A stretch of DNA of 64,000 nt from Sanguinoderma infundibulare. Lineage: Eukaryota; Basidiomycota; Agaricomycetes; Polyporales; Polyporaceae. Under the pieces are notes generated by a model. The model was not told the origin of the DNA. It saw only the letters and a list, made by a program, of their open reading frames with translations, and did not search any database. A program made the position numbers and the translations under genes. Of this stretch, positions 1 through 49,191 are shown one piece after another. The number at the start of each line of letters is the position of its first letter. Positions within the stretch are counted from its first letter, which is position 1. Where the stretch lies: the NCBI GenBank assembly GCA_032821775.1, contig JAVLRN010000013.1:124001-188000 (forward strand), read 5' to 3'.

Positions 1-1339
1 AAGACACCGATGACGAAGCAGAAATTAACTTGCGAGTAGTAATTGTTAACGACAATACACGCCGCACCGGCTTCGCAAGCTAGGAGGGTATCTCGGTCAG
101 CAAAGATTTGCAATGCTACTACAACGTCTGACCACACTCACTCGTGGCGCCGATCCACCCAATGCCGCCGCACTGGCCTGAACGCAAAATGTTAATTTAC
201 AAAAGACAGCTTCCAAACGCGCATGCGAATGAACCTACCCCACACAGCCGACTGCGCGCGAGCTGCTTGCACGAGCGCGAAAGCGACACCGACCGCGGCG
301 AAGAGCTGCATCTTGCTGAGCTTGACAAACCGTCTTCGACGAGAGTGCAGTAGCCCTCCTCAGACCCTTTATGAACCCTCAGGCGTGCCATACATCAGGC
401 CCCGAGAGCCACGGTGCTCCGAGCTCCGAGGAAGCCCCCGCCTCTGAATGGGACAGAAGGCAGACGGTCCGCGAGCAGCCGCGTCGAGAAGGACGAACGT
501 AACAACGTAACTTAACACCCAGGACTCGCGACGGTGCCGCGTGACACGGTGAAGGCACTAGGTTGACCAGCATCAAGCATGCCCCGAGGTGCAGACGTCG
601 GTGGCTATATGCGGGCTTGGCACCGTTCGTTCTGTATGCAGTCTTCATCTCCTCGGGCCATCGTCGGGCGCAGGTGGCACTAAACGACGTTCAGCACTCG
701 AAGGACGGCGGAAGAAGCAGGACGAAGGAAATGACAAGGAATCGACGTAGCCTGTGGCTCCGCAATGTCCGGAGAGGCGTCGATGGATGAGCGTGGAATT
801 TCCCCGACATCGCCTCGACCCGCTTCGACAACATACAGCACCTGCTGATACATTCCGCATGACCGATGGAGCAGGTAGGTGTTCCGCGAAGGGAGGCGTC
901 GTGTTGCAGAAATTCCGCTCTTCCAGCGCGAGCTCCACCTAAACGCCTGCATTGCCTATATGCGGTTCGGGTCTATGTATAGACCTCGGAATATGAATGG
1001 CGAAGGATGAGCGTGACGATCCAGGCTTGCAGGGCTTTCCGGATGTTGTGGGCCAAGGAGGCCTGCTGCAACGTCATGGGGTTAGTAATTCTCAAGCTCC
1101 AAGGACGGGTTGTGGTTCTCGCTTGAAGCTGCCGCCGAAGGCGAATGTTCGCAGTTTTCGAACCTTGCCCCCGCGACTTGAAGAAATATCGTCCTGACAG
1201 ACGGGTTCCAGCAACGTCCTGCTCACCAACTCCAATCAACTCAACCTTTCCGTAATGAAGCTTGAGATGCTCACCTAGTCGAAAGACCAGCAGGAACCCT
1301 GGCCGAGGAGAGAGTTTATTAGGTACCGCGGCTCCTCTA
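1..1339. other. No supported gene
   Basis: Short overlapping frames occur on both strands. None has a recognisable domain, a consistent splice pattern or a convincing start context. I see nothing nameable here. Confidence 0.5.
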
Positions 1340-28688: not shown

Positions 28689-30402
28689 TTATGGATGAAA
28701 ATGATAGTAAGCGTCCGGATTTAGACTGGAGGAGTGTGGTGGAAGTCGCCCCGGTGGGTTGACAAAGTCAGAATGATGACGAGGAGGAATGGGTGAATGG
28801 GGAATTGGCGGGAGGTGGGGAGGAGGAGGATTTGATGGTGCAGGGGTGGGCGGCTGAAGCGGATAGGAAATTCGGGAAGGCGGGCGCGATAGTCTGGGCA
28901 TCGGCGCGTACATTGGCGGAGGCAGCCGTGAGGGATGTATTGCAGGTGATGGCGGCGGCTGCGGAAACACGTGTGAAAGGGGATGTGATGGACTGGGCGT
29001 CGGCGCGTACATCTGCGGAGGCGGCCGAGAGGGAGCGGGATTCAATTGCATCGTGGGTGACTGTGGTGGGGGCGGGGGCGGATAGGGGATTCGGGAAGGC
29101 GGGCGCGACAGTGCGGGCGTCGGCGCGTACATCTGTAGAGGCGGCCGAGAGGGAGCGCGAACGAATTGCATCATGGGTGACTGTGGCAGGGGCGGGGGCG
29201 GACAGGAGATTCGGGAGGGCGGGCGCGGCAGGGCGGGCGTCGGCGCGTGCATCTGTAGAGGCGGCCGAGAGGGAGCGGCAACCAATTGTATCATGGGTGA
29301 CTGTGGCAGGGGCGGGGTCGGATAGGAGATTCGGGAGGGCGGGCGCGGCAGTGCAGGCATCGGCGCGTACATCTGTAGAGGCGGCTGAGTGGGAGTGGGA
29401 AATAATCGCATTGGGGGGGACTGTGGCGGGGGCGGGGGCGGATAGCAGATTCGGGAGGGCGGGCGCGACAGTGCGAGCGTCGGCGCGTGCATCTGCGGCG
29501 GTGGGGCCCCAATCGATGGTATTTCTTGGCGATGGAGGGCCGGGGAGGAGGGGGAAGGGTGGCCAGGCGTCGCCTGGTGCGCTGCTGCTGCCAGTCTCGG
29601 TCGCTTGGCTGTACCAGCGGCGTCCTCGGAAACACACTCAGATGGAGAGGCGGCGCGTTTGCGCCGCCTGGCAATGAAGTTGATGGGAAGCCCCGCGACC
29701 CAGGGGCCGAGCTCCATCGCGTACTGGTCCTGGAATGGCCATTTGTTGTCAAGAAGGGAGAGTGCTTGTTCGGCGGTGAGTGGTCCGTGGGATACGAGGC
29801 TGGTGATGAGATCGTCGTCGAGGATCGAGGTGTGGTCGTACTGCGCAAGCGCATGGTCGCGTTTGAAAACGCGCTGATGCCATTCGCGAAGTTTCTGGGC
29901 TGCCTCGAGATCAGGTTCGCCGCGCTTCAGGCTTCTCGCCCTTCGTTCAGGTGGGACCGGGGGCGGTCGTGTTTTCTCAAAAAGTGTGGGGTCGCAGATG
30001 TCACAACAAGGAACTGTTGGGGCTACAAATGGTTATCAGGTCATAGGTACAGCGACGGCACAGAGAAATCACTTACCAAGCACCTGGGGATTGTCAAAGA
30101 CCCGAGCCCACACTTTCCGGCGGCAGGAGACGCTTTGAACGAAAACGAGAAGTCCCTCGTCGGCACTGTCGTCCGTGAGAAGAGGCTGCGGACCCTTGGG
30201 GTCAGCATAGTCGCGCGTCGAGCCGCCGCGCGATAAACCATGCGCGATCGCATACGCGCGAACCGCTGCACGATCCCGAGGCTCCTTCGGGTCGTTAGTG
30301 GTTGGCTCTTGGGCAGCGTTCGGTTTGGAGGACTTGCGCTTGGCGGCCGAGGCTTTCGGGGTGACCAGGTCGATGTTGTAAGCTGACTTCTCCACCAACA
30401 GT
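28689..30402 (-). pseudogene. RecQ-like DNA helicase, C-terminal half (split by transposon)
   Basis: This is the 3' part of the helicase gene whose 5' part lies at 43347-44730. It begins in mid-exon with LLVEKSAYNIDLVTP, directly against the KDZ element. An intron near 30007-30075 follows. Then PCCDICDPTLFEKTRPPPVP suggests a small Cys-rich metal site, followed by KLREWHQRVFKRDHALAQYD and NKWPFQDQYAMELGPWVAGL. The last 260 residues are Pro-rich, with about six imperfect repeats of roughly 37 residues (core RPPSRISYP, then PLQMYAPTPA). The frame is open from the transposon edge to the stop at 28689. The long plus-strand frame opposite is a shadow. Confidence 0.8.
30396..30402 (+). other. Target-site duplication, left (CAACAGT)
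   Basis: These seven bases abut the left terminal repeat of the KDZ element and are repeated exactly at 43347-43353. Confidence 0.85.
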
Positions 30403-30607
30403 CACCAGTAGCTTCCATACTTGTAATACAAGTCCCCATAACTGTGGTAGGAGGGGGACTATTTTATGACCCGTCTGTAATTCACTTACAACTGGCCTAA
30501 TTGTATTTCCTTCATTGTGTATCGTCTCCTCACTTGTATATCTTATATACCTATGCTTGTACCAGCCCTGCCCACTTGTATATCCTTTATATGCGTACTT
30601 GTACCAG
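30403..30607 (+). repeat. KDZ left terminal inverted repeat
   Basis: It pairs with 43142-43346 in inverse orientation with four mismatches by eye, about 98 percent identity. It contains the small palindrome CTTGTAATACAAG. Confidence 0.9.
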
Positions 30608-31395
30608 CCCCGCCCATTAGTATATCCTCTAAATGCGTACTTGTACCAGCCCTGCCCATTTGTAAATCCTCTAAATGCGTACTTGTACCAGCCCCACCCA
30701 TTAGTATATCCTCTAAATGCGTACTTGTACCAGCCCTGCCCATTTGTAAATCCTCTAAATGCGTACTTGTATCAGCCCCACCCATTAGTATATCCTCTAA
30801 ATGCGTACTTGTACCAGCCCTGCCCATTTGTAAATCCTCTAAATGCGTACTTGTACCAGCCCAGCCCATTAGTATATCCCGCTTGTACCAGCCCCGCCCA
30901 TTAGTATATCCTCTGAATGCGTACTTGTACCAGCCCCGCCCATTTGTAAATCCTCTAAATGCGTACTTGTACCAGCCCAGCCCATTAGTATATCCCGCTT
31001 GTACCAGCCCCGTCCATTAGTATATCCTTTAAATGCGTACTTGTACCAGCCCTGCCCATTAGTATATCCCGCTTGTACCAGCCCTGCCCATTAGTATATC
31101 CTCTGAATGCGTACTTGTACCAGCCCCGCCCATTAGTATATCCTCTAAATGCGTACTTGTACCAGCCCAGCCCATTAGTATATCCTGCTTGTACCAGCCC
31201 CGCCCATTAGTATATCCTCTGAATGCGTACTTGTACCAGCCCAGCCCATTTGTATATCCTCTAAATTTGTACTTGTACCAGCCCCGCCCATTAGTATATC
31301 CTCCATATGCGTACTTGTACCAGCCCTGCCCATTAGTATATTCCACTTGTACCACCCCCGCCTATTTGTATATGCTCCATATGCGCATTTGTACC
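30540..31395 (+). repeat. Subterminal 42-bp minisatellite, left array
   Basis: About twenty units built on TTGTACCAGCCC-GCCCATT, then GTA-ATCCTCTAAATGCGTA. Most are 42 bp; some are about 32 bp, lacking the CTCTAAATGCGTA part. Because 42 is a multiple of three, several frames stay open as 14-residue repeats, which I regard as artefacts. Confidence 0.9.
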
Positions 31396-31756
31396 TTAGT
31401 CAAATGGCCAGCAATATCAATAGCACACCTAACACGCAAGGGAACGTCACTATTGATCATTATTGCGAGATTACAAGAAACCACGTAAGCAATAGTGCAA
31501 TAATATGAGTTAACGTGCTGGATTATATGCGACATCTATCTACAGGGATTAGGGCGTGGACGATACTGGGAATCAGATGAAGGAATGTGATGACCAAGCG
31601 AGAGAAATGCGATAGTGGAGGGAACGCGCAGGGAACGAGTTGGCTTATGCGCGAATGAACAGTATGGAATTGACTTATACACAGCGTCTATGCGCCCGGC
31701 TTCTGCGTACGTCAGCCCTCCACCTCCTACCCGTCCTCCTCGAAGTTGTGGGTGGT

Positions 31757-34013
31757 CTACTTCAGCCCGGAACGATGGGTCTCGAGCACCGTGGAGATTG
31801 TCCAGTTGACATCATCCACGGCATGCGCAAGGTCGGCAGGAGGCTCAGCTCCTACTTCAACCGCCGACGCCCAGATCGCGAGAGACATGACGACAACGAA
31901 GATTCCGTTACACCCCCCACGACGGATTGAATCCCATTCCAAGTCGTCCTCCGGGACTGTGCGCGGCAGCGGCCAGTTCTCTGCATTCTGGCGAACATTT
32001 GGCTGTAGCTTCCTCCACCAACTAATCCACCGTGAGCCAAAGGACTCAAGAGAATCCGGGCACGGGATCCGGTCGTAGTCGCGACCGTTGTTGATCCACC
32101 GTGCAACCTCCTCAGGCCGATGCTTCGCGCTGATACGCTTCTATGACGAGGGTCAGCGGACGTGAGATACACAACATGCAAGAGCCATCGAGACATACCT
32201 TGCCGTCAGGGTGTCCCATGGCGCATTCGAAAGCCTGCCAGTTCTTGAGCAGCTCCGACCACGTGTTCGTGATGCTGAGATTTTCGAGATGGGAGATGGC
32301 AGTCGTTATCCAAGGAGGTACGGCAGGAGCGCCGTTCGATGCAGTATTGCCGAGCTGGCGGAAGGCACCGTCCAAACCGGCGGCAGCCAGCGTGGCGCGA
32401 TTCTTCTCGATCGTCCTGCGCCGCTCGTCATCATAATTGGGCTCAGGAAGGGACATGGGGGTCGACCCTGGAGTAGAGGGAGGTGATGCAGAGGTTGAGC
32501 ATAGAGATGTGGGCTTCAGACGTAACTCGCTACCAATGGGGGACGACTTACGAGTGCTCGTCGCCTCCGAGTGCTCATCCTCTGCAGCCCGCTCAAAACG
32601 CTTCCGCTCCTTCCTCTTCCGCGAATCCTCCGCCTCTTCATCATCAGATGAGTGGGCTTCCGTTATGGCATCCTTCGACCCTTTGACCTTGTTGCGCTTC
32701 CGGTCCTTCTTCTTCTTCCTCTCCGTCTTGTCCTTGCCATGGTCCCGTTTGCGCTTCTTGCCGGGCGTCGAAAGCTCAGTGGTCTTGTCATTTTCGCTGG
32801 CAGAAAGAGACGAGGGGGAAGCTGTTGGAGAAGCAGATGAACGAGGCTGTGGGTCGTTCGATGGACTGGGTTGGGGGGATGAGGCTTCGTTCATGAACGC
32901 GTCGTGTAACTTGCTCGCGGCATCGGCAGCTTGGTACATCGTCAGCGACTGTCACGATAATAACCGCATTATATGACGCTTACCATAACATGCCGTGATG
33001 AACTTGTCCCAAGCTTGGGAGACCATCTTCCAGTGGGTCGTCGCATCCTCGAAGGTCTTGTTGAGCATCAGAGTACGGCCGTTGTGAACGCTGTGAACGT
33101 GTGAACGCTGAGTCAACGATGAGCGCGGATTGGACAGCCCTCACATCAAGGACGTCATCTCGCCATCTTGAGGGTTCGGCCCGCCCAAGAACAGCGTCCC
33201 GTTCCAATTCGTGAGTTTCTTGATTGAGTCCAGAAGGTAACGGGCTGTGTCGGGGAGCTGGTTGATCCGGCTTGGACACAAGGTAAGCACATACTGGCAA
33301 CGCCGGCGGTGGTTCGGAAGCTTACTGTTGTAACAGCTCCGCTCGTTCATGGGATGTCGCAGCGTCGCAGTCCCCGGATTCAAGCTTCCTCAGGAACTCA
33401 TCAAGAGATTCCTCGCCCTTTGCGATCATATCGCGGTACTCTTCGACCTCCTCCTTGACGCTCTCTGTCTCACCCTCTAGCATCTCCTTCGACTTCGCGA
33501 TCACGAACGACCACCAATGCTTCTTCTTCTCGCCAGGCGGCAAGGATGCGGAGTACTCGTCGTACTGTTCGTGCAGCAGGGGCATAATCTTCTCAGTGTA
33601 CAAGGTAAGATACGCCTGGTATGGTTGGGGCGGCCGAGCCTTCTTCATTGTGAGCGACAAGATTGACTTCTTGCTTTTCGTAGTCTCCTCCCCGCTCCGC
33701 CGGTTCCAAAACCACCAATAGATTTGCTGGCATGATGAACGTAAGTATCGGATGATCAGTCACACGTTGCCGTACTAACCTTGTGTCGCAAGCCTTTCAT
33801 ATGCTGACGGGTCTTCTCCTCGTCTCCGTTGAACTTATTGAGCACCTTCTGTGTCGGGTTCTCAAAGCCGTCGGGAAACTTGTCAGACCAGTCCTGATAC
33901 GTGCCGCTCAACCACGGAGTCGATTGGTTTTCTGTGCAAGCCTTTCGGAAGTCGTCGAGCCGGCCAGTTAACCACTCAAACTGGTCTTTGGAGGTCCAAC
34001 GTTTGCGAGGCAT
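31757..34013 (-). CDS. KDZ passenger gene, unrecognised (possible DNA-binding protein)
   Basis: The start at 34013 reads MPRKRWTSKDQFEWLTGRLD and continues FRKACTENQ. After an intron comes KARPPQPYQAYLTLYTEKIM, then HEQYDEYSASLPPGEKKKHW. Downstream are NWNGTLFLGGPNPQDGEMTS and a long basic nuclear-type stretch (KKRKRDHGKDKTERKKKKDR). The C-terminal region includes WDSIRRGGCNGIFVVVMSLA and ends AVDDVNWTISTVLETH. Several introns are needed. I recall this type of gene as common in Agaricomycetes near KDZ transposases, but I cannot name a domain. The basic N-terminus and nuclear-type signal would suit chromatin or DNA binding; that is inference. Confidence 0.65.
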
Positions 34014-34335
34014 GGAGGGAAGATGCGAAGGGGAGGAGGAAGCGGTCGGGTGGGGCGTGGAAGGTGACCACGTCAGAGGTCGGGCGGAAGGCCTGGAAAA
34101 GACTCAAAGGTATTGTCTAGGGCTTCGTAGCCAGACATCGTTTTTCACGCTTCTGCACGCCTGATTCGTAAACATAAAGTTGACTGAGCTTCCAGCATGC
34201 AATTCAGGGTCGCCCTGCCACCCGCTGCCCTCCCAGACTCCCCAAAGTCTCTCGTCTGTCACCCAGTGCCGTGCATTTGACAGGAGGAGGTCCGTGCGCC
34301 ATTAATCCCTTGATCTCTTTGTGAGCTAACGTTAT

Positions 34336-35150
34336 GCTCCGTTCATCTGTAGCTCTTACACAGTCATCGCCGTTCATCGACCCCACCGCGTCGGACGAGG
34401 AGCAAGCGGTCGACTCCCCTCCCTATCTCACGCCACCCTCTTCTCCCGATCCTGTCGAGTCTATCACTGCGGCTCCAACAATTATGGCTCCGCCGCCGCC
34501 AGTGTTCCAGTTCACCGTAAACACGACCACTGTCCACGATGAATCACAGGCAGCCTAACGGTGCTCAGCCCCCGTATCCGCCAACCCCCACTCGCGCTCA
34601 TCTTGCTGCTATCGCGGACATCCCTGTGGCATCGCTTCGGAACTTGGTTCTCTCCGATGCGCCTCGGAGTCCCCGGCGCCACTGCCTGTTCATGATTGCG
34701 CTGACAAGCCGGCTGTTCCAGCTCATGCTCGGCGGCCCCGCCCCCCAGTGACTCCTGAAGGGAAGGCAGAGCTCGTCCACTGATCGCGACGACACTCGAG
34801 GAGATGAAACGGGAGGAGGCTGAGAAGAAGGCTGCCGCCAAAGCGGCCCCGACGTCCTCGTCCACAGACGCTGACAAGGCGCCTGCGGAGGACGAGGTCG
34901 ACCCTTCGAGTATGTATTCCCGCCCCTTCTACACCTTTACGTCAGCGAATCCGATAGCGCGTATAGAAGAATACATCGCTCCGCCCGATCCGAACCACTG
35001 CAAGAAGCGGTTTGTGGTCTCTCTGGTACCAAGGTCGGCGTATTCAAGCATTGGTCGGAAGTGCAGCGCTACACGTCAGAAAAGTCCGGCTCGTTGCAGG
35101 AGGGGATGCGATCTCGCACGGCGTGGGATGAAGGTCATTGAAGACTAGTT
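34336..35150 (+). pseudogene. Viroplasmin/RNase H1-N-domain-like gene, broken
   Basis: Pieces in order are a Pro/Ser-rich start (SPPYLTPPSSPDPVESITAA), an Ala/Lys-rich segment (EEMKREEAEKKAAAKAAPTS), then NHCKKRF. In another frame come GTKVGVFKHWSEVQRYTSEK and SGSLQEG. The last parts match the small viroplasmin-type domain also found at the N-terminus of eukaryotic RNase H1 and in many basidiomycete proteins. The frame changes at about 34760-34800 and at about 35030. It is therefore a remnant inside the KDZ element. Confidence 0.55.
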
Positions 35151-35234
35151 TGCCGGGCGCCCTGGTATTGTTTTGAGATATTGACAATTTGGTGTAACGT
35201 CCGTGGGTCCTTACATAGTACACGTACACTTCCG

Positions 35235-35530
35235 CCTCGTCGGTTGTCGATCAAAGGCAGAGACTTCTCGGATTACCAATTCGTGCTCAAGGGTCACGAA
35301 TGCTTGCGACAGGACGACCGTGTCATGCAGCTGTTCGGCCCGTCAATACCCTAGTGCCTGGACAAGGACTGCTTCAAGAGGCGTCTGCACATTCAACGGT
35401 TCCCCGTGATCCCGCTTACGCCGAACGCCGGTCATACGCTCGCTCGCTCGCTCCCCGTCAACAGCATGATCGGCTATATCCTCGGTCTGGGCGATCGCCA
35501 CCCGTCCAACCCACGGCATACGTCCAAAGG
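35235..35530 (+). pseudogene. Fragment of a TOR-type PI3K-like kinase
   Basis: A single frame reads [36 protein letters not shown], a TAG, then CFKRRLHIQRFPVIPLTPNA. It jumps directly to LARSLPVNSMIGYILGLGDR and HPSN. These blocks match the TOR kinase core (SIKGSD, GHEDLRQDERVMQLFG, SMVGYILGLGDRHPSN). Roughly 95 residues between the last two blocks are missing, there is a stop, and no N-terminal FAT region is present. It is a decayed, internally deleted piece of a host-type gene lying inside the KDZ element. Confidence 0.75.
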
Positions 35531-36440
35531 ACAGAAACGAGTCCCATGCCAAAAATAGTGCTTAGGCACTGGCAGACCCCCTTATAGGAGCTGAGCTCGA
35601 ATGGAGAGAGAGAGATCCGATGTTATAGTAGCGTTCAGGCCGGTTACGGCGTATGTGGCTACTTTCCGGGAGTGTACGGAGTGACGACACCTGTATGGAG
35701 CTGGAAGGGGACGTGTTGTTTGCTCGTGACGTCTAGACGACTACACGTGATGCGCGAATTTTAAAGGGCCGATTTTTCGCCCCGGATGGATCATGACTAC
35801 GTCCAGCCTACGGCTCAACAACACGGTCAAGGTATTGACACCGGCAACTACATCGAGGCATGCGTCTGTTGTTGCGAGATTTGTTCGCTGATGGGAGTTC
35901 TGTTCGGTCGGCATGCATCTGAGAGAGATTTCCCCAGACCGATTCTGATCCGATTGAGCGGATCAAGGGAGACCCCCGAGACACGTACGAGATCAGCCTC
36001 GATCCAGATACGCGCTCAAGCGCCTCCGCTTAGTGTCCCGTTTTAGGACTGGCCCGACGTGCCCTCCCGTTGACTGTACCGCTCAGCGCCCTTGCTCAGC
36101 GTCGCGACCCGCCTATCAGTTGGTCCAATCACACCCGGAGCACGCCGCAGCGTGCTCCTTCCGTGTTTGCGAGCCGTTAAATATGTAGCTATCTCCTAAC
36201 AGCATGGACGGAAAAGGTCGTCTATGAGTGTAGACGGAAAAAAGAAAGAATCATGATGCGGCGACGGGACGTGGATGGCGGTGAGCGGACGGGTGAGAGA
36301 ATGACGGGAGGCGGGCTAACAAGAGGGGAAGTGCGGCGCCTTCACCGTTCATGAGCCATGAGCAGCTCGACAATGTCCTCGTGCCCAGGTTTGCTCCCTT
36401 CATCCTACCCGTGAATGAGTTCCACTTCCATTGTTGTGGA
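35531..36440. other. Element interior, no supported gene
   Basis: A short frame through 35940-36045 reads ERIKGDPRDTYEISLDPDT and could be another captured coding scrap, but I cannot assign it. Nothing else is seen. Confidence 0.35.
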
Positions 36441-36454
36441 CATCTGACGGCGGA

Positions 36455-37105
36455 ACGCGATGTGCGCTCTTTTTGCGCCTGGTCCTGTACTATACTTAGG
36501 GTTGGTGCCGTCGTCATACTATAAGGACGATCTCCCGTTTCGAGCTCGCCGTGTGGGCCGAGGACGTCGAGATGCCATGTCCGGTCTTCTTGCGCCTGGT
36601 TCTGTTCTAAGCTTGTGGTCGAAGGCGACTTCAGGCGCAGGATCCCATGCAAGAGCCGAGGGACCACCACGGCGCTTTACACGCAGGTTCCACCCATGCG
36701 GTGCATACAAGAGCACCTCGTGCGCACGCAGTACGCTGTGGTGTGTTGAGTTCGTCGAAGACAAGCTATACTACACGGACGAGCTCGGCTTCCTGCGATG
36801 TCCGCTCTTCTTGCGCCTGGTCCTGTGCTATACTTAGGGTTGTGCCGTCGTCCGACATACTATATGGACGATCTCCCGTTTCGAGCTCGCCGTGTAAGCC
36901 GAGGACGTCGAGATACCATGTCCGGTCTTCTTGTGCCTGGTTCTGTTCTTCTAAGCTTGTGGTTGAAGGCGACTTCAGGCGCAGGATCCCGTGCGACGGT
37001 AGCAGAGAGCCGAGGGACCACCACGGCGATTTGCGCGCAGGTTCCGCCGCGCCAGCCCATGCGGTGCATACAAGAGCACCTCGTGCGCACGCGGTCCGGT
37101 TCCAC
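36455..37105 (+). repeat. Tandem duplication of about 340 bp
   Basis: The segment from about 36455 (TGCGCTCTTTTTGCGCCTGG) to 36743 is repeated from about 36797 to 37105. Identity is high and the small gaps do not preserve a frame. Shared landmarks are TTTCGAGCTCGCCGTGT, GACTTCAGGCGCAGGATCCC and CATACAAGAGCACCTCGTGC. Confidence 0.8.
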
Positions 37106-37348
37106 TGTTCCGGCAGAATGCTCTGTCTGCTCTGCTTGTTGGTTCCATATCGGCCCTCCCATTCCAAGTTCATGGTCCAGTCATCGTCATGCTATGTACT
37201 CACGGACGTGCTTCGGTTGCGCTTCTCGGTCTGGACACAGCTGCAGCCAGAATGACTATTGTACCCACACTTTCTCCGCATGGTTACATCAAACTTACTT
37301 CAATCTTCCTCGACGGAGGCGGGCTCCGCCTAGCATTACAAAGCTTCA

Positions 37349-37370
37349 TATCTTCCAAATTTGGAAGATA
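37349..37370. repeat. Perfect 22-bp palindrome
   Basis: The arms TATCTTCCAAA and TTTGGAAGATA meet with no spacer. It lies about 210 bp upstream of the coiled-coil gene, inside the KDZ element. Confidence 0.7.
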
Positions 37371-37432
37371 GATATGTCTCAAATGAAAATGGGCACACCA
37401 ACCAAAAAAGGGCAATCATGGAAGTTTTTATG

Positions 37433-37440
37433 TATAAAAG
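37433..37440 (+). promoter_or_regulatory. TATA box (TATAAAAG)
   Basis: It lies 144 bp upstream of the ATG at 37584 and supports that start. Confidence 0.5.
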
Positions 37441-37583
37441 GCCCCTCGCTGCCGTTCGGTCGAATTTGCCCCAGCCGCCATCCCCTTGTTCTCATCCCCT
37501 CGAACATCGGTACGCATCAGATCGCTCCCCGTCCCCTAGCGGTGCTGACGTCGGCTACGGCCCCTGTTCGACCCTTTCCATAG

Positions 37584-38162
37584 ATGTCAACTAAGTATGC
37601 TCCCCCTCCTCGCTCGTCCGAGTCCGACGCTGGCACCGGGGGGCGCTCGCGCGCCACCAGCGCTGGCTCCCAGGCCGCCGGACCTGGCTCCCGCTCTGCC
37701 CCCGCCTCCGTCCAAGGTCGCCCCCCGTCCGTTGCAGCCTCCGTCCAAGGTCGCCCCCCGTCCGTTGCAGCCTCCGACGTCCGTGACTGGGACTCGGATA
37801 TCCACATGCGTACCGCTAGTAAGCAACTGTCCATATCTGTTGAACGTCCTACTGACATCTATTGTGGTTTAGGCGTAGCCTCCGAAGACTTGAACTCGAT
37901 CGGCACCCGCCTCGAGTCCTTGTCGACCTCCGTTGACTCGCAGACCACCGCGATCGCTTCGTTGGAAACCCAGATGAAGTCGCAGATGATGTCGCAGACC
38001 GCCGCGATCAACTCGTTGGAAGCTCAGGGAAGGTTGCAGACTGACGCAATCAACGCCCTCGGTGTGAACGTCACGTCCGCCATTAGCCGGATGGAGACCT
38101 CGTCCTCGACCTTGCAGGACGCCATCCTCCAGCTGATCAACGCGAGCGGACGGCAGGAGTAG
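37584..38162 (+). CDS. Small coiled-coil passenger protein of the KDZ element
   Basis: Unrecognised. The N-terminal half is Ser/Pro/Gly-rich, with an exact repeat of GRPPSVAASVQ. An intron at about 37811-37873 (GTACCG donor, TTTAG acceptor) rejoins in frame to VASEDLNSIGTRLESLSTSV. The C-terminal half is a predicted coiled coil with heptad-like repeats (TTAIASLETQMKSQ, TAAINSLEAQ, TDAINALG). It ends LINASGRQE. A partner-binding or multimerising role alongside the transposase is possible but only inferred from position. Confidence 0.65.
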   Translation: MSTKYAPPPRSSESDAGTGGRSRATSAGSQAAGPGSRSAPASVQGRPPSVAASVQGRPPSVAASDVRDWDSDIHMRTASKQLSISVERPTDIYCGLGVASEDLNSIGTRLESLSTSVDSQTTAIASLETQMKSQMMSQTAAINSLEAQGRLQTDAINALGVNVTSAISRMETSSSTLQDAILQLINASGRQE

Positions 38163-38530
38163 GGTGGTCGGTGAGTCTCTGTTTTCACGTCTCATTTTCC
38201 AAGCCTTACGTTTGTTAACAGGAATGTGATCGTCGCGAGCCTGTAGTCATCAACGTCATCGTCGACGATGAGCATCATCTTCCGCATCTCGCTTGTATTT
38301 GTATCGTGTACGATGTACTGTGGAGTTTATGGGAATGGATCGCAATCGTTATCGTCCCCTCATCATCATGATGTGTGATAAGTGTGCTTAATGAATCAAG
38401 CGACGACGGAGTGGGCGGGAGCAGAAAGAGTTGAGGAAGAGATAATATTTGGGCGCTCTACTTGAGCGCCTCTGACGTGGCTCTTCGTTTTCCTTAAGCC
38501 CCTTCGTTCACTTGCTGCCACCAACTCCTT

Positions 38531-41500
38531 ATGTCTAAGAAGCGACCTGGCGAGAACTCACCTCGCACCCCTGCAAAGAGCAAGAAGCCAAAATTCAAGG
38601 TCATCCCCAGAGAATGTGACTCGGACGTCGGGCCAGCAAATACGGTCTCCAGGCGCGTCACCCACATTTCTGCCTCCGCGCCGAGCAAGGGAAAGCTCAG
38701 GATTAAAACCAAGCAGAGGACGGTTCACCTCAGTCCCGAGGACATCCTTTCCGATGCGGCACTTGACCCAACTATCGCTGCCACCGTCGACTCGATTGTC
38801 GGAGAATTCCCTCCCGAACTGGCGGAGCATCTGACGGAGGAACTTCCACAAAGTAAGAAGCGTGAGCGTGTTGCGCAACGGGCCGCTGTACGTTTCGTTT
38901 TTATGCATAGTGAATGATCTAACTGTTATGTATCTAGAGCAAGGTTCGGGAGTGGCTTCCTTTGAGGCAAACTATGGCCGATGAACTGATGCTTTACGAG
39001 GGGTGCGAGGAGGATGTGGAGAAGACTGTACTGTGCCGCCAATGCCTCGTCAACGAAGCGTCTGTGCGATGCATCGAATGCGAGGGGAGGTCTCTTGTAT
39101 GCGCAGCCTGTGCTGTCGCGGGGCATTCGAGGTTGCCCTTGCATCGTGTACAGGTGAGTTTCCATTTCCTGTTGTTCGCGCCGTAGTTGAGGTTATTCCG
39201 TGTCAGAGATGGAATGGAAAGACCTTTGTGAAAAGTTCCCTTCGCGAGCACGGTCTGATCGTCCAACTTGGCCACAACGGCGCGGAGTGCCCTTGCCCCT
39301 CCGCTAGTTCTCGGCGTCTCGTCGTTGTGGACCTTACAGGCACCCACGAAGTAGATGTCTTATTCTGCGAGTGCCTCGACCCAGAAACCCGCAGGTTTCA
39401 GCACGAATGGGTCCAAGTGTTCCGTCGAGGGTGGTTTCCGGCAACGACGAACAGACCTGCGACAGCATTCACCTTCCGCGTGCTCGAGACCTATCACGAG
39501 CTCAACTTCCAGTCGAAGGTCAGCCTCAATGACTACTGCCGAACCCTTGAGCGTGTCACTGACAACTCTGGGTTGGGACCCGTCTTGGTATGCTCGTTTA
39601 CCTTCGAACCTCCTTCGTCTCTGATCAAACACCCAGAACCGCTATCATCAGTTCTCTCACGTCATGCGGCTGTGGCGCCATCTGACCATGGTCAAACGGG
39701 GTGGTCGTATCCACGACCCGGCTGGTGTCGCGGGGACACAACCTGGGGAGCTCGCTGTCGAATGCCCCGCATGTCCTCATCCGGGAAGGAACCTGCCGGA
39801 GGACTGGGACAAGGCCCCGCCTGAGATACGGTAAGTCCATACTATGTATCGTATCACTTGTACGCGCGATCTGATGATGTCCAACAAGATGGCTTTATAC
39901 GCTGTTCCTGATGCTAGACGCCAACTTTCGAGCAAAGTGCAAAGCTCGAAACTTTGACGACTTTGAGCTGGGATCGGGGTGGAGCTATTTCGTTGAAGAG
40001 AGCGCATATCAAGCGCATATTGCTAAGTATGGCGACCAGCAGGAAGTACGTTGCAGACATTACATTTGCGCGTTCTTTGTTGCTAATGTCGGAAGCAGGA
40101 GAACCATTGCTCTGCTGAGCATAGCGCCATCGTGAACGCTAATCTTCGTCACGAAGGTTATGTGGCATCCGGCGTTGGTGCGGTTTTATGTGCCCGTCAT
40201 GCACTCGTCCGTCGGAACGGGGCGGGAGATACCCAGAAGGGGGAAAAGTAAGCAAATCTGTCCACGTTTGTCGCAAATGTCTGCTGATCAAAGCAGATAC
40301 GCTAACATGGATTACCTCTTGTTTTCCACCTTGACGGGGGTCGTCATCCTCATCTTGCTCATCTCTTATGATATCGTCTGTCAGTGGTATAGGAACCTCT
40401 TCGCGCGAATGCTTGGATTCCCGCGCGAAATGCACCTCGACCTTGACAAGGTCACACTACGTTTCGCCATCCCGAAGAAACACTTCCGCGTTCACGGGCC
40501 CAAGCACTCACAATTCTCTTTCAACTTCCTTCGATGGGTCGCTCGTACATACGGGGAGGGCATTGAGTCCCACTGGTCCCACATGAACCCATTGGCCCTC
40601 AGCACCCGGGAGATGAGTCCCGGCCTTCGGCACGAGGTCTTCAATGACCACTGGGGTGCGTGGAATTGGCAGAAAATCATCGCCTTCGGTAAGTACATTA
40701 CGTTAGGCTGTTGGCGCGTGTCACTGATATATCGAACAGCGCCGTTCTTCCTCAAGTCCCTCCATGAAGCCAAGACCATGCATGCTAAACAGTTCAAGAC
40801 ATTCGAGCAATTCAACAAGACGTTCGATGCTGGGGTTGTAGGGCAGTGGGAACGTCGCGTTCAGGAGTGGGAGGCAGATATGTCGAACCCCGATCCGTAC
40901 GAGGAACCAATAACGAGTGCGTATCTACATTCGGAAGACACGTCGGCTACGTTCTCAACGTTTCCATCACAGATATGTCTCAAGCAGCCATACGGCGCCA
41001 GATCGCAACCGAGGAAGCGGCGGAGAACGCCGCCCAGACGCTACTGGGGCATGAGACAACGCCCGGTGTGTTCCTTCAAGTGGGACTTGAGCTCGAGGAG
41101 CAGCAGTAAGTGCTGGAAATCCTACATCGTGTGCGCATGTTATTGATGTTCTAATATGCAGACGTGCCATGAGCATGGTGAAGACGACTTCCAATTCCGA
41201 TAAATCGGCCGCCCAGATCCAGGAAAAGCAGACGCTCCTCAGCCGCCGCATCGCCTCATGGCAGTCCATCCAGGACTGCCACATGCCCATGGTTTCCGCG
41301 CTCCGCGTCACTGCCTCACACGTACCCGCTCCAGATCCCCCATCCTCATCCTCGCCTGCACAAACAAGAGTGAAGGACGTGCAACTCTGGCTGCCTTCTG
41401 CCCTACCTGCTTCTCTTCTTGCACTAGACTCAATGGCCTCTCTGCGCGACAAAGAGCGGCGACTGCGACTTGCTCAGCTCTCCGACTGCTTGGATGACAT

Positions 41501-42266
41501 CCGCCGGTTACGCCGCGTCCTGACCGGCATCACTGACTTCAAGCGCTTCAATGTCTCGGGGACCGGCCAGCGCGCCAACACTCGCATCCGCACGCTTTAT
41601 TCACGTTTCGACGCCAAGATCCAGCGGTGCATTCTTCGCTACCGTGCATCTCACGCCGCGATGAACAACCTTGACCCTTCTGGTGATTGGTCATCCCGCT
41701 TCAAGGTACTCAATGACGGTGACATCACAGGACCCGGGCGCGATGAAGATGAAAGTGAAGGCCGAGTCGTGGTGAGCTGGATCTGGCTTTCTCCTGGCGG
41801 TGCCAAATCTTCCGATCCCATGCGCCCATCCACGCCGGCTGAGTTTGCAGATAGTATGCGCATTGAGTGGGCTCGGTGTAAAGCTCGGGCGGAGCGGTGG
41901 GGAGAGGAGGAGGAGTTGCTGGAAGAGGAGATGCGCCGGGTTATTGAATTCTTCGAGGACCGGGCGAAGTGGTGGCGTAGCCAGGGTAATCGCCGTTCGG
42001 ACGTCTCCCCAGCGTTACGTCTTGCGCTTTCGATTTACGCCGAGAAGCAGGCGTCGGTATTCGAGGGCTTGCGCCTACGCTGTGGCTCGCTTTGGGCACC
42101 GTACTTCAAGACTTACGGCTCGCTCCCGGCGTGGGCAACGCCATTTGATCATGCTGATGCTGCACCTTCTCGTGTCCATGTCATGAGGGCACGCATTAGC
42201 CAGCTTGACGAGGACGTGGGGGGTTCATGTTCGGCATCAGTGTCGTCTGACAGCGAGGATGTGTAG
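38531..42266 (+). CDS. KDZ transposase with CxC2 cysteine cluster
   Basis: The start MSKKRPGENSPRTPAKSKKP is basic. A Cys cluster follows: CRQCLVNEASVRCIECEGRS, then CAACAVAGHSRLPLHRVQRW and CPCP. This is the CxC2 type known to accompany KDZ transposases. The conserved core includes LDANFRAKCKARNFDDFELG, GSGWSYFVEESAYQAHI and GVGAVLCARHALVRRNG. Three acidic-site regions (YANMDY, LLISYDIVCQW and GIESHWSHMNPLA) fit an RNase H-fold DDE enzyme that cuts and rejoins DNA. The C-terminal 365 codons are helical. All introns are short GT-AG and join in frame, with no stop or shift, so the gene looks intact. Confidence 0.9.
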
Positions 42267-42427
42267 TTTGTTGTTTGTTATCTGTATCCCTGTATATTAG
42301 AGTTGTTTTGGCAATAATTCCATAAGCGATGTGAAAGCGTGTCTCATAAACTCACTCAAGTAATCGACAGATGGATTGATGCCTTATAAGGCTGCATTAT
42401 GAATGACTTATAATAATAATGCTCATC

Positions 42428-43200
42428 ATTCACAAGTGGACAGGGCTGGTACAAGTACACATTCAAAGGATATACCAATGGGCGGGGCTGGTACAAGCTG
42501 GATTTACAAATGGGCGAGGCTGGTACAAGTACGCATTCAGAGGATATACTAATGGGCGGGGCTGGTACAAGCGGGATATACTAATGGGCAGGGCTGGTAC
42601 AAGTACGCATTTAAAGGATATACTAATGGACGGGGCTGGTACAAGCGGGATATACTAATGGGCAGGGCTGGTACAAGTACGCATTTAAAGGATATACTAA
42701 TGGACGGGGCTGGTACAAGCGGGATATACTAATGGGCTGGGCTGGTACAAGTACGCATTTAGAGGATTTACAAATGGGCAGGGCTGGTACAAGCGGGATA
42801 TACTAATGGGCTGGGCTGGTACAAGTACGCATTTAGAGGATTTACAAATGGGCAGGGCTGGTACAAGTACGCATTTAGAGGATATACTAATGGGCGGGGC
42901 TGGTACAAGCGGGATATACTAATGGGCTGGGCTGGTACAAGTACGTATTTAGATGATATACAAATGGGCTGGGCTGGTACAAGTACACATTTAGAGGATT
43001 TACAAATGGGCAGGGCTGGTACAAGTACACATTCAGAGGATATACTAATGGGCGGGGCTGGTACAAGTACATATTTAGACAATATACAAATGGGCCGGGC
43101 CGGTACAAGTACGCATATAGAGGATATACTAATGGGCAGGGCTGGTACAAGCACGCATATAAAGGATATACAAGTGGGCAGGGCTGGTACAAGCATAGGT
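42428..43200 (-). repeat. Subterminal 42-bp minisatellite, right array
   Basis: Inverse of the left array, with about twenty units on the core GGGC-GGGCTGGTACAAG. Unit order and length variants (42 and about 32 bp) resemble the left array but are not an exact mirror, so the arrays have turned over independently while the outer 205 bp stayed alike. Confidence 0.9.
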
Positions 43201-43346
43201 ATATAAGATACACAAGTGAGGAGATGATACACAATGAAGGAAATACAATCAGGCCAGTTGTAAGTGAATTACAGACGGGTCATAAAATAGTCCCCCTCCT
43301 ACCACAGTTATGGGGACTTGTATTACAAGTATGGAAGCTACTGGTG
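43142..43346 (-). repeat. KDZ right terminal inverted repeat
   Basis: Inverse of 30403-30607 with four mismatches. Its last bases, read from the helicase side, give CACCAGTAG, which places a stop two codons after the insertion point. Confidence 0.9.
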
Positions 43347-43353
43347 CAACAGT
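43347..43353 (+). other. Target-site duplication, right (CAACAGT)
   Basis: Exact repeat of 30396-30402, directly abutting the right terminal repeat. Confidence 0.85.
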
Positions 43354-44730
43354 ACCGCGAGGCCGGTCCATCCCCGCCCACGCGCCGCTCTCCCCGCGCG
43401 TTGAATGAAATGGGAGAATGTCGAGGGCATCTTCCATTGAACAACCCGGTCGATGTCTGGAATGTTCATTCCCTGTCATGGGTGCCAAAAAACGCGTTAA
43501 TACTGTAGAAACATCTCGGGGAGAGGAAATGGAACACTTGCCATGCCGGCCGCATCAGTACATATTAGGATCCGGATTTTCCCTTCGCGAAAGTATTCCA
43601 TTGCGATATTTCGGTAGCGGTGTGAGAGTGTGGCGTTGAATGGACAGAAAATACCTCGAAATGAGGCGCGGTTCGGGTGGGTCGCGTTGATGATGTCTGG
43701 ATGTTTCTCGAGTCGAGAATTCAGGTAATCGATGATCTCACCGCCGGTCGAGATATTGTCCACGTATATGTATGTCTTGGGGATGTCATTGATGGTGCGG
43801 AGGTGGGCGGGAATAACAAATGCGAGATCTTCGAAGGTGTTCAGGGGATGTTCGCAGGCACGTACAACAATTGACACGTTCGGGTGGTCGTTCCCGACGT
43901 TCTGATAGCGACTCTGGGTGTCGGAATGGGCGAAATGGAGTGATGCCCATATGGCACGGACGACGCGAGGGGTGAGGGTGGCCGAGACAGCAATGATAGG
44001 GGTTCCTCGAGGTAGGAATGCGCGCACCTTCCCCAGCGTACCATATTTCTTACGAAAATCCGTCCCCCAGAGGACGATACAGTGCGCCTCGTCGATGACC
44101 ATCGACAGACAGTTGCGCATGAAGAAGCCATTTCGGAGGACGCGTTTGGTAAACGTGCGCGACTGCAACATTTCCGGGGAGATGAGTATTATTTGATAGT
44201 TGAGGGCGAGGATTTCCTGTATATAGCGGTCTGATTCAGCGCGTCTACATGATGAGAAAACGGCAGCCGACATTTACCTTGATTCGAAGTGGAGAACATG
44301 CGCCATTCTTGCTGTTCAAGGCAACTGCTTTGAGACCAAATTCTGTTTCGAAGGTTACACACTGGTTTTCAGGGTCATCAGATGCATTAGAATGTATTAA
44401 GAGATGTGCTCGCCATTTCATCTTCCAAAGATAGCAAAGGGCACACCATAATCGTGAACTTCTTCTCATTTCCTGGCCAGAGATGTGGGCCTGCGGCTAT
44501 CGCGGTCTTGCCTGCGCCGGTGGGAGCTTGAACGATCATATCAGTCCCTTCGATTTGCGCTTGTACTGCTTGTAGCTGGAAGTCTTTCGGGGGTCCGTCC
44601 CAGTGATATGTCTGTTGCATTTGCGTCGCGAGCTTTTTGAGGTCATCCGGGGTGAGCTTAGGGCGGGGAGAAGGTGGCGCCGGGGGCTTCGAGTAAGTGC
44701 GGCGACCATAGCGCGAGTGCTTCGGAGGCA
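43347..44730 (-). pseudogene. RecQ-like DNA helicase, N-terminal half (split by transposon)
   Basis: The start at 44730 reads MPPKHSRYGRRTYSKPPAPP. FQLQAVQAQIEGTDMIVQ leads to Walker A APTGAGKT. After two introns come NYQIILISPEMLQS, the DEAH box in MVIDEAHCIVLWGTDFRKK, SATLTP, KTYIYVDNISTGGEIIDYL and ILICTDAAGM. Motif VI is FIQRAGRAARG. The layout is that of superfamily 2 RecQ helicases, ATP-driven DNA unwinding enzymes, of the expanded basidiomycete type. Two introns appear to be GC-AG (GCGAGC after SLEDEM, GCAAGT after DAAGM). The frame ends at the KDZ insertion, 15 codons past motif VI. It is divergent from the DUF6589 gene, 371 bp away. Confidence 0.85.
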
Positions 44731-45101: not shown

Positions 45102-48100
45102 ATGGATCATGAATATGACTTGGAAGCGCTACTTGCCTTCTCTCCGCTGCCTCCCTCATCCCCTCTTACAGAGCTTCCGACGGACCCTCTTGAACCAAAT
45201 GACGAAGACGAGGAACCCTTCAAGCCACCAGAATCATTCGCTGGGGTGCCCGAGACTCAGGATGTGGACTCCAGGCAGCAAGGCGACGACCAGACAGATG
45301 ACCGCGGTTGCAGCCCCCAGCCAACGCCGATCTCGCGACGACATGGACGTATCTCGAGGAGGGCGTCGACACGCGAACCTGACGACGGTGCGGGTGAGGA
45401 AGACGATGATGATGCCGAAAATGACCTCAGATTGCCGCGGACGCCTCGCAGTCTTCGCCACCTCAAGATAGTCGACCTAGGATCCGAAGGCCATATCATT
45501 GGGGCCGACTCGAGCGACCCCGGTGTACTCATCTCCCCACCGAAGCCCAAGAAGCAGAAACGCGAGGAGAAGCGACAGGCGACGATTGCTGTCCAGAACA
45601 CCCAGCGGGCCCACGACCGAGAACAGCGTCTCCGGGCGGAGGTGCGCGCTGAGGAGGATGCGCGCAGGCTTGACGAGGACGCGCGGAGGCTCGAGGCGAT
45701 CGCTTTGGCGGAGAGGAAGGCACGAACCTGCAAAGTTGCATTAGAATATCTGAAGGAGAACAAGGTTACCTGGGGCGACTTGGTTGAGTTCATCTCGCGG
45801 CCTACCTCCGGGCTCGCGCAAGAGCGGTTCGATGGTCTATTCAAAAACCGTGACCGCCGCACGGGCGAGAGCCAGGTCGCGCGTATCCTGGACCTGTGGG
45901 CGACGAAGAACTCATCCACAGGTCGTCAGGATCTTCACTGTTGGGCTATGAAGTACATCAGTGGGGTGGTCAACGCCGAAGCAAACACCGCGACTCGCGA
46001 TGGGGTTCTACAGACCAGACAACACTTATTCACTGGGGAGTTCCTGTTGTCGTTCAGCTTCTCAGCTGTTCAAAGACGTATACAAAACCTCTGCCCCTCC
46101 ACTACCGCCATCCTCCGAGCCTTTAGCACCACGACCCACCAGCGCAAAGCAAATGAGAAGAAGGAACAGACCGCTAAGGAACAAGCCCGCACGGTGAAAC
46201 GAAAGGCAAAAAATGACCGCGCACGTATACACTCACCTACTACCAAACGAACCCAACTAATCCTCCGGAATGCAGCGCATAGGATTCGCCATGACGAGCT
46301 TGCTTGGGGAGCGGAGCCAAAACAATAGCCTGACGAAACACGTACTCGCCGTGTATATGTATGTGACGGGGGCCTCCCGGCAGCTGATATCCGTGGTGGC
46401 GAGCCTCGGGAACTCCAGCGGGTATACGACAGTAGCGGGGAGCGGCGGACAAGAACCAGATGTCGGCAAGACTATCGGCGATGTATCAGACGACAGCGAC
46501 GACTCGGACGACCCAGACTGGGAACCCTGTACCTCAGAAGAAGAGCCCGACGGCGAAGCTGAAGACGAACCAATTGACGAGGGGCCTCCCGAAGACGACG
46601 CTCCCAGAGCCCAAGACGAGAACTGCGAGAACCAGCGTCAGGACCCAAAGTTTCCGTTGCTCAGCTCGGCGGACCCTTACCATGCATACTACATGCGCGA
46701 GAGGATCCGTGACAAGCTCGAGGCAGCGGCGGCGTCGAAAGAGGGCGACCAGGAGAGCCAGGACGAAGGTGGTGAGCGAAGTGGCGTTAGTAGCCGGTCC
46801 TCAATCGAGCCCACATTTGCTTCCGCGATGCAAGCGCCCACAACCATATTCAGTCTTCTGTACCCGGGTGCTGGCTTGCTCAAGCGCATCTCGGAGTCCT
46901 GTCGCTATTCCACTCGTATCTGCGCTCGCTCTTTCATCCTAGGCCATGTTTACGACAATATTAACATGGTCTTCAAGGTCGCAGAGCAAACGCTTGGCAG
47001 CAAGGACACACAAGAGAACGGAACTTGCGCCACTGTCTTCCCCCTCCTCGCCGCTGACCCGAACAACATGAAAACGGCCGACCTCTTGTCCTCGTTCGAT
47101 TCTGCACCACCCCTCTCCATGAAAGACGTTCTCCACACCCCCACCGAAGCCGCGCTTTTCCACAAGTCCCTCGAGCACACTCTCCTCCGCACCATTGTCA
47201 ACAGCTCCGACCTCTTCGCTCGCTTTCGTCCCGAACTCGACGCCTGCCTCCCAGCCACTGACGACCAGATACCTGTCCACCAATCTACCATATATCCCCT
47301 CCCCGCGATGAACATCGACGAATCTAGCACCACCGGCAACGCCGAGGTGCTAGATGCCATCTTTACGGAGCTCAACTACGCCAAAAACAATCCCCACTTC
47401 GTCGACGTCGCCCAGCTCATTTTCGGCGACCAACTATCTATCGCCCGCCTCCGCACCATCATTGCCAACCGCGCCGGGCACGAAACGCTCGCCCAATCAT
47501 ACGGGCAAGTCGTTTTCGGGCCTGGCTTCTTCCACCACCAGATGGCGGTCGTCCACGGCCTCATGGAGACCCACTACGGAGACCCCACTGCAGGTCATCG
47601 CAACCCCGCCTCCCTATCCTTCTTCAACACTGTCCTGGATCGCAAGCCCATCGTCCTTTCCTCACTCCCACCCTATCGTGTCTGCCGCGACCTCATATTC
47701 GCCACCCTCTCTGCTTCCGCCCTCCACTGTCTTGAACTCGTTTCCGGCTCTCAATCCCTGGACAAATATGCCGAGACCGTATCCTTCCAACAGCTTCGAG
47801 AGGACACCGCCAAGATCCTCAAGAAGTACGCCAGTCCCAACGACATCGCCGAATTGCGCCTGGCGCGGCAGGAAGAGATCGCGGAGCGCATGCGCGCGCA
47901 TCAGACCCCCACGAGCACGTCCGCCCCGCCCTTCAACCCCCTAGCGGAACCACTCAAAGGCGGCGACATGGTTTTCGAGAACGCCTGTCTGTTCCTTCGC
48001 GACGCCCTCGTTTTGCGCGAATTCACGGACGCCATCAAGGGCGGATACTCCGGGCGAATCATCCGCGCGCTGAAGATCCTCGCGCTCATGTACCGCGGCA

Positions 48101-49191
48101 GCGGGCGCACGAAGTATGCGCACGAATGCCTCCACCTCATCCACAACCTCACGCGTGTGTGGCCGGCCACTCTACGGTACGTCCAGCTTTGCCTGTACTA
48201 ACTGTACCGCATGATTCTCTCCTCAGCACGCTGGTAGACGTTCCCAGAGACACAGCCCCAGATTCTCGCTGCTCCTTCTCTGGGAATTTCTGCCAGCGTG
48301 CTGAGCTACATGCATCCAAATGCACTCACTGACGCCATCCGAAACAGAACTATCATGACCCACAATTGGCTTTTGAATCCAACCGGCAGCGCCAACTCGT
48401 TCGTCCCCGTCGACCTCGTGCAGGAGCACATGAACCTCTGGATTAAGGTAACATCTGAGCCCTGTATTGACGTCCGAGCCCCACATTGACGCGTTCTCCA
48501 CAATTCACGTATACAACAGGTCATTTACAGCGCACAGGGGAGCAATGCGTCGTGGGAGTGGCTGGAAACCATTTCCCCCTGCATATCCGTGTTCCGCCAA
48601 CTCGCATCCCAAGTAAACGACGCGCTCGGCCAACGCCTCGGTGCCAAGCATCAATCCCCTGACCTCCAGCGCGACCTCGCTTCTCTCACCGCATCAATGC
48701 GCGACAACGGCATCTTTCGGGTCGAGCGCGGATGCATTCTGCGTGATATGAAGAACGCTGAGGTGGCCAACGTGGTCGCCTCCGGACTCAAACAACTCCC
48801 AGCCCCCCTGGCCGAGTACAACAAGGCTTTCGAACAACTGCAGCGCCGCCGCCGTGAGGCACCGCTCATTACGCCTCCCTCAAGTCATGCGGGGACACCG
48901 CCCTCGACGCCGACAGCCACAGATACCACAACCGCGCAGCCTGTGGGCGTGGCGCTGCCTGATGTACGTACACATATATCATTCTGATTGTCGATTCGCC
49001 GCTGACATTGTTCGTAGATTGACACGACTGGGACGCCATCTGATGTACCTCCAAACGCTTCCGTGCCACGGGGCCTGTGGGTCGAGGAGGATGAGGACGA
49101 CTACTGGCAGTTCTACGACAGCGACGATTACGAGCCCCGGGCCGCGTTTGCAGAAGAACAAGACCCTTCGTTGGATTTCGAGGACTGGTAG
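45102..49191 (+). CDS. DUF6589-type large protein
   Basis: The start MDHEYDLEALLAFSPLPPSS leads an acidic and Arg-rich N-terminus with a coiled coil (EDARRLDEDARRLEAIALAE). The segment QTRQHLFTGEFLLSFSFSAV is followed by an 84-nt intron near 46195-46279. After it comes KHVLAVYMYVTGASRQLISV. The family core includes LIFGDQLSIARLRTIIANRA, FHHQMAVVHGLMETHYGDP and MTHNWLLNPTGSANSF. VDLVQEHMNLWIKVIYSAQG and SNASWEWLETISPC follow. The C-terminus is acidic (EDEDDYWQFYDSDDY). I recognise this as the DUF6589 type of Agaricomycetes, of unknown function. Late introns at about 48180-48347, 48449-48520 and 48965-49018 join in frame. No lesion seen. Confidence 0.75.

Follow-up and report, generated by a model that had tools for sequence, protein, structure and literature searches.

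KDZ transposons have been described in Cryptococcus neoformans, where KDZ1 is about 11 kb long with 241-bp terminal inverted repeats (TIRs) and 8-bp target site duplications, KDZ2 and KDZ3 are about 9.2 and 10 kb long with TIRs of 139 and 169 bp and duplications of 4-8 bp, and insertion of KDZ elements into a reporter gene was shown (PMC12810828, excerpt). Kyakuja, as described for the Laccaria bicolor families Kyakuja-1_LB and Kyakuja-2_LB, has 7-bp duplications, 5'-CA..TG-3' termini and no TIRs, and it is the only one of the TET-positive transposons that the cited excerpt places in Polyporales (PMC12730594). The terminal repeat motifs of KDZ and Plavaka elements have been characterised in Marasmius, and therefore long TIRs in Agaricomycete KDZ elements may already be published (PMC8290104, excerpt). 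Our literature search returned no paper naming KDZ, CxC2 and transposase together, and no paper on a KDZ insertion into a RecQ helicase in Polyporales. Here we analysed a 64,000-bp stretch of the Sanguinoderma infundibulare genome (the window; C13:124001-188000 of a 48.9-Mb genome in 87 contigs), which carries a KDZ transposon in an exon of a RecQ-like helicase gene. We are strongly inclined to the view that this element, which has no TET gene, inserted recently and that its DNA has since undergone methylation-type deamination at CpG sites and not repeat-induced point mutation (RIP).

The limits of the element and its terminal features in window coordinates are as follows.
30403..43346, plus strand: complete KDZ transposon, 12,944 bp, one of six copies, defined by its ends, TIRs and duplications
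30396..30402, no strand: left target site duplication CAACAGT, identical to 43347-43353
43347..43353, no strand: right target site duplication CAACAGT, identical to 30396-30402
30403..30607, plus strand: left TIR, 205 bp, starting CACCAG, identical in five of the six copies
43142..43346, minus strand: right TIR, 205 bp, ending CTGGTG, pairing with the left one

A first-pass annotation, made by a model from the sequence alone, had reported TIRs of about 98 percent identity over 205 bp next to a perfect 7-bp CAACAGT duplication. Both were found, with a measured TIR identity of 98.05%. The left junction reads ...CCAACAGT up to the insertion point and CACCAGTAGC beyond it, and the right junction reads GCTACTGGTG followed by CAACAGT. 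The annotation had also given base-exact limits of 30396..43353. The insertion is indeed clean, but that range includes both duplicates and is too wide for the element itself. Its word 'giant' was an overstatement, given published KDZ elements of about 9.2-11 kb (PMC12810828, excerpt). With a KDZ domain, an N-terminal CxC cluster, TIRs and 7-bp duplications (7-8 bp expected), the element is, judged by its sequence, a member of KDZ, a known kind of transposon and ordinary in kind.

The insertion falls in the helicase exon that bears helicase motif VI. The two parts of the gene are as follows.
43354..44273, minus strand: RecQ-like helicase on the 5' side of the insertion, comprising the preceding exon and that portion of the split exon which holds motif VI (DEAD match; exon-by-exon comparison with a paralogue on contig C11)
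28695..30395, minus strand: helicase on the 3' side of the insertion, comprising the remainder of the split exon and a proline-rich tail region (by the exons of the C11 paralogue, with 80% identity in the split-exon remainder and 62% in the tail)

The window exon matched DEAD with 33.2 bits (cut-off 26), and its Helicase_C score of 19.2 bits lay below the cut-off of 23.5, which the split exon of the C11 paralogue exceeded with 27 bits. The closest solved chain to the paralogue was RECQ5 (E-value 2.6e-13), and its solved relatives (36 sequences) are RecQ helicases. Read on the minus strand, the helicase sequence is ...QRAGRAARGRGWTGLAVLL in the right flank and continues with LLVEKSAYNIDL in the left flank; the paralogue exon is QRAGRAARRRGRTGLAVLLVEKSAY, to which QRAGRAARGRGWTGLAVLL plus VEKSAY corresponds in the window. 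Removal of the element restored the host frame, as the first-pass annotation had proposed: the joined flanks, with one duplicate kept, formed an open frame of 151 codons. The C11 paralogue, which is naturally uninterrupted, agreed independently, being 88% identical over 3,051 bp straight through the joined insertion site. In the interrupted gene GLAVLLHQ is followed by a stop, two codons into the element, where the annotation had seen the stop in CACCAGTAG. The truncated helicase would thus end just past motif VI, which it would keep, and would lose its C-terminal part, made up of the remainder of that exon and the proline-rich tail. A 120-bp tandem array of 4.1 copies lies in the helicase tail (window 29000-29495), with a repeat number different from that of the paralogue, and a 643-amino-acid frame with DUF6589 (E-value 8.9e-100) lies near the helicase on the plus strand (window 46270-48201).

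Comparison of the KDZ copies in the genome by their ends, which the annotation had suggested, yielded six full-length copies. When the genome was searched with the 30-bp end, allowing up to three mismatches, 12 exact matches were found, forming six inverted pairs, and a reversed control pattern gave none. Six such pairs with duplications are far beyond chance. The copies (C13, which is the window copy, C8, C6 and three on C4) were 12,679-13,017 bp long, shared 99.02-99.66% pairwise identity and all carried CACCAG...CTGGTG termini. Each was flanked by a 7-bp duplication, perfect at five sites (CAACAGT, CGACCGT, GGGGCCC, CATACCA and TCCTCGT) and with a single mismatch at the sixth (GTCGTCC/GTCATCC), which by eye is a G/A difference at a CpG. 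No target-site consensus was evident among the six duplications, and no solo ends or short derivatives were found in the genome within three mismatches of the 30-bp end. Frames of at least 300 amino acids crossed the joined flanks at four sites (C6 and the three on C4), and no long frame crossed the C8 site. Because four frame pieces from three of those four sites gave no Pfam match, only the window copy was counted as a proven exon insertion.

Next to the TIRs, and overlapping their inner parts, lie two subterminal arrays.
30556..31395, plus strand: left subterminal tandem array of 42/74/116-bp units, with CTTGTACC forward (by repeat and motif counts)
42437..43194, minus strand: right subterminal tandem array, with CTTGTACC in reverse (by repeat and motif counts)

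The 8-mer CTTGTACC occurred 20 times forward and never in reverse in the left 1.1 kb of the window copy, 20 times in reverse and never forward in the right 1.1 kb, not at all in the interior, and once in the remaining 51 kb of the window. Array lengths differed among the six copies, which had 16-23 motifs on the left and 18-22 on the right in constant orientation. We infer that CTTGTACC is a putative binding site of the transposase.

Between the arrays lie three genes. Of these, the transposase was modelled by hand from splice signals and relatives.
38531..42266, plus strand: transposase gene, 10 exons, 1,086 amino acids, with Pfam CxC2 and KDZ (hand-made model)
Transposase exons 1-5, plus strand: 38531-38887, 38938-39153, 39207-39587, 39637-39830, 39889-40045
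Transposase exons 6-10, plus strand: 40099-40247, 40297-40688, 40740-40916, 40973-41105, 41162-42266
31757..34013, minus strand: gene 2, 6 exons, 660 amino acids, no Pfam family (hand-made model)
Gene 2 exons, minus strand: 34013-33780, 33726-33326, 33270-33145, 33090-32984, 32929-32199, 32140-31757
37584..38162, plus strand: gene 3, single frame, 192 amino acids here, open in all six copies

An intact KDZ transposase had been read from the letters by the first-pass annotation. The hand-made model bears this out, with an open frame in the window copy and matches to CxC2 (E-value 3.7e-37, 127 bits, cut-off 27) and to the KDZ domain PF18758 (E-value 6.7e-32, 111 bits, cut-off 26.6). CxC1, with 38.6 bits, was also above its cut-off. 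By family membership the enzyme is presumably of the DDE type. In the alignment, 57 columns were invariant among seven relatives where present, including the acidic residues D510, E572 and D602, among which catalytic ones may lie. The named protein relatives of the last exon included those of Dichomitus squalens, Epithele typhae and Trametes pubescens, all three Polyporales. The start, the stop and nine GT-AG introns were kept in all six copies, and the frame was open in four, the window copy among them; a single stop interrupts it at residue 696 in the copy on C6 and at residue 397 in the one at C4:937306. A TGA first noted in the C4:2860082 transposase was rejected, as that frame had run through an intron and the model holds no stop there.

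Gene 2 was open with all GT-AG sites in all six copies. It had no Pfam match, and among the 7,988 candidates to which a protein search was limited there was a single weak relative (P0101, Athelia sp., E-value 4.7e-5; two stretches with 25% and 30% identity). None of 38 candidates scored in a second search matched, which does not establish an absence of relatives. Gene 3, coiled-coil-like by eye, encodes 181 amino acids in the remaining five copies; of the six, the window copy alone has a 33-bp tandem duplication, in frame, at window 37704-37736. Within the genome, the frames of gene 2 exon 5 and gene 3 matched in the six copies only. The exon-2 frame of gene 2 had one weak match beyond them (C7:2956185, E-value 2.5e-4), with no KDZ-domain row nearby. 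Neither gene had a match at an E-value of 0.01 in the compared pieces of other KDZ families. Because both genes are constantly present across the copies, we infer that they may assist transposition or help to control it. Between them (window 36439-37098) lies a direct duplication of about 340-360 bp, in which no reading frame is kept at equal length across all six copies. No RNA gene reached the gathering score in window 30000-44000.

To describe the divergence of the copies, changes were scored against the majority in the gap-free columns of the core (31400-42437, 11,005 bp); the terminal arrays, whose repeats misalign, were excluded. Results showed 205 changes, of which 199 were C>T or G>A and 6 were others, and 182 of the 199 lay at CpG. 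The CpG rate was 24.9 times that of other C (15.7-42.0), and non-CpG change amounted to 3.5e-4 per bp per copy. Rates by CpG context decreased in the order ACG, CCG, GCG and TCG, from 0.0264 at ACG to 0.0094 at TCG, an order that resembles the human clock-like signature of 5-methylcytosine (5mC) deamination. The copies formed a star, with singletons in 191 of 198 variable columns. Seven variable columns were shared, against 8.0 (3-13) expected if CpG hits recur independently, and therefore no common ancestry after the source is seen. Loads were unequal (p 3.9e-5), with a 2.75-fold range from 20 (C8) through 22 (C13, the window copy), 29 (C4:2860082), 33 (C6) and 46 (C4:937306) to 55 (C4:3200286), which may reflect different ages or different methylation. 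The young insertion proposed by the annotation agrees with the 22 changes of the window copy, the second least decayed of the six. All in all the main points of that annotation, its 'giant' apart, were upheld, and the activity that it thought possible is plausible; the sister copies, the CpG decay, genes 2 and 3 and the oriented arrays had escaped it.

Coding changes in the transposase (33 missense, 2 stop and 22 synonymous, against 35.9, 1.2 and 19.9 expected from random CpG transitions) and in gene 2 (16, 0 and 12, against 17.1, 0.3 and 10.6) fit random CpG transitions. Gene 3, with few changes, had 4, 0 and 7, against 6.6, 0 and 4.4. The CpG observed/expected ratio was 1.08 in the majority core, and 1.06 and 1.11 in the window flanks; the source had therefore not been decaying long. 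In most Basidiomycota, CpG methylation is confined to transposon-rich regions, and 5mC deaminates to T (PMC13297926, excerpt). A DNA-methylase domain was found at three places in the genome.

Other KDZ families of the genome were examined in the same way. In a TET-positive family (four copies, 6,250 bp aligned), 38 CpG and 6 other C>T changes were counted, a ratio of 16.9 (7.6-42.4); this alignment leaves the TET gene outside, and with 45 changes in the sample its power is low. In a third family (three copies, 2,191 bp) there were 44 CpG and 6 other C>T changes, a ratio of 22.5 (10.2-57.2). CpG decay is thus present in all three KDZ families examined. For CpG against all other changes, no difference was found between the six-copy family and the TET-positive one (Fisher p 0.45), but the third family, with more non-CpG changes, was different (p 0.006). 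No protection by TET can be seen in these counts, at low power. None of 29 genome rows of TET/JBP (PF12851), among the best candidates scored, lay inside any of the six copies.

In the whole genome the TET/JBP rows, each an exon, numbered at least 29. Of these, 22 exceeded the cut-off, and many stood about 2-3 kb from a KDZ-core row (for example C17:138885, C9:2692246, C4:435621 and C7:909136). KDZ-domain rows, each an exon, numbered 87 among the best candidates scored. A second KDZ family, which is TET-positive, is seen from C2:4712246 onward, with kin on C10, C12, C18 and C3; on five contigs the distance between a TET row and a KDZ-core row is about 19 kb. The C2 and C10 members start matching at a common CACCCCAGG end, and the match persists at C2:4732470, where the compared C10 piece ends (C10:362301-365299 lies outside the comparison). 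They may belong to a candidate single element of more than 30 kb, with its right end beyond the compared stretch.

These results could be explained by the following course of events. A complete cut-and-paste KDZ element without a TET gene would recently have entered the helicase exon. Its transposase would most likely bind each end at the terminal repeat and the oriented CTTGTACC array, excise the element and join it to a 7-bp staggered cut, leaving the 7-bp duplications that are observed. The six copies would stem from one undecayed source sequence, and each would then decay separately after landing, nearly only by C>T at CpG as the spectrum shows, probably through slow deamination of CpG-methylated transposon DNA. 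Several points weigh against this explanation. An empty site, in the form of a second allele of the right flank, was not found in the assembly, where only paralogues (89% and 66%) matched it. In the alignment of the window's helicase, one stop falls close to the end of the first matched exon and another past the split exon; both seem to lie in introns, but the helicase was not necessarily intact before the insertion. A source ratio of 1.08 needs either a recent arrival or an unmethylated donor, and CpG transitions between the helicase paralogues (79 of 366 differences) suggest that the CpG bias may in part be shared by the whole genome.

Among the alternatives, a dead family, with its machinery silenced or lost and no copy moving today, deserves serious consideration, at somewhat short of even chances. 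Two of the six transposase frames carry a stop, the coding changes are as expected without selection, and loads of 20-55 changes imply that some time has elapsed. Against this stand the open frames of four transposases and of all six copies of genes 2 and 3, as well as ends intact at all six copies, so that present activity is plausible from the sequences. A more tentative proposal, which we think rather unlikely, is that a donor kept free of CpG decay sustains the family through repeated jumps, with the daughters methylated after landing and then decaying. It is suggested because the source was undecayed and no decay is shared beyond chance, yet the loads differ 2.75-fold. Such persistence would require no element-borne TET gene, and, to judge from the CpG excess of 16.9 (7.6-42.4) in the TET-positive family, TET gives its own copies no visible protection from C>T.

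Two further alternatives concern the decay itself. That the CpG bias simply reflects the general mutation spectrum of the genome and is unrelated to methylated transposons seems improbable. In 3,025 columns between the helicase paralogues, 79 of 175 transitions lay at CpG, as such a spectrum would have it, but with 191 transversions the CpG share of all differences was 79 of 366, compared with 182 of 205 in the element; this control is suggestive only because the paralogues are old and partly saturated. An active, RIP-like process that mutates repeats, in place of slow deamination of methylated CpG, is harder still to credit. Nearly all changes are C>T or G>A, and the other KDZ families are alike in this, yet the density is low, at 20-55 changes in each 11-kb copy, and only 8 of 199 changes fall in the CA context of the Neurospora type. 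TCG, the context of rust-type RIP (PMC12730594, excerpt), is the lowest CpG context here. An assembly artefact at the junction, for which no sign was seen, can practically be dismissed: the six copies have six distinct flanks and separate 7-bp duplications, and the contigs that carry them measure 0.86 to 4.2 Mb.

The reading of a recent insertion followed by methylation-type decay thus concerns a complete copy of an understudied type of transposon, for which six insertions allowed ends, genes and target sites to be resolved. Of most value are the family of six copies, the end arrays with their fixed orientation, and the presence in one genome of KDZ families with and without TET, both with CpG scars. 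The published speculation that transposon-borne TET counters C-to-T mutation can therefore be tested by counting. Ac/Ds-type (hAT) transposons carry many short motifs near both ends in opposite orientation, which are bound by their transposase; the oriented end motifs found here are alike in mode of working only, and the transposase family and the duplication length differ. With Kyakuja the element shares 7-bp duplications, CA..TG ends, a KDZ-group transposase and an Agaricomycete host. The two Laccaria families, however, have no TIRs and carry TET/JBP, whereas this element has 205-bp TIRs, subterminal arrays and no TET match (PMC12730594, excerpt). The element may belong to the Kyakuja lineage, although it has TIRs, whose absence is reported for those two families. 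Compared with KDZ1-3 of C. neoformans, which have 8-bp or 4-8 bp duplications and CxC1, the element has 7-bp duplications and CxC2 as its best match, and it resembles them in size class, long TIRs and KDZ transposase (PMC12810828, excerpt).

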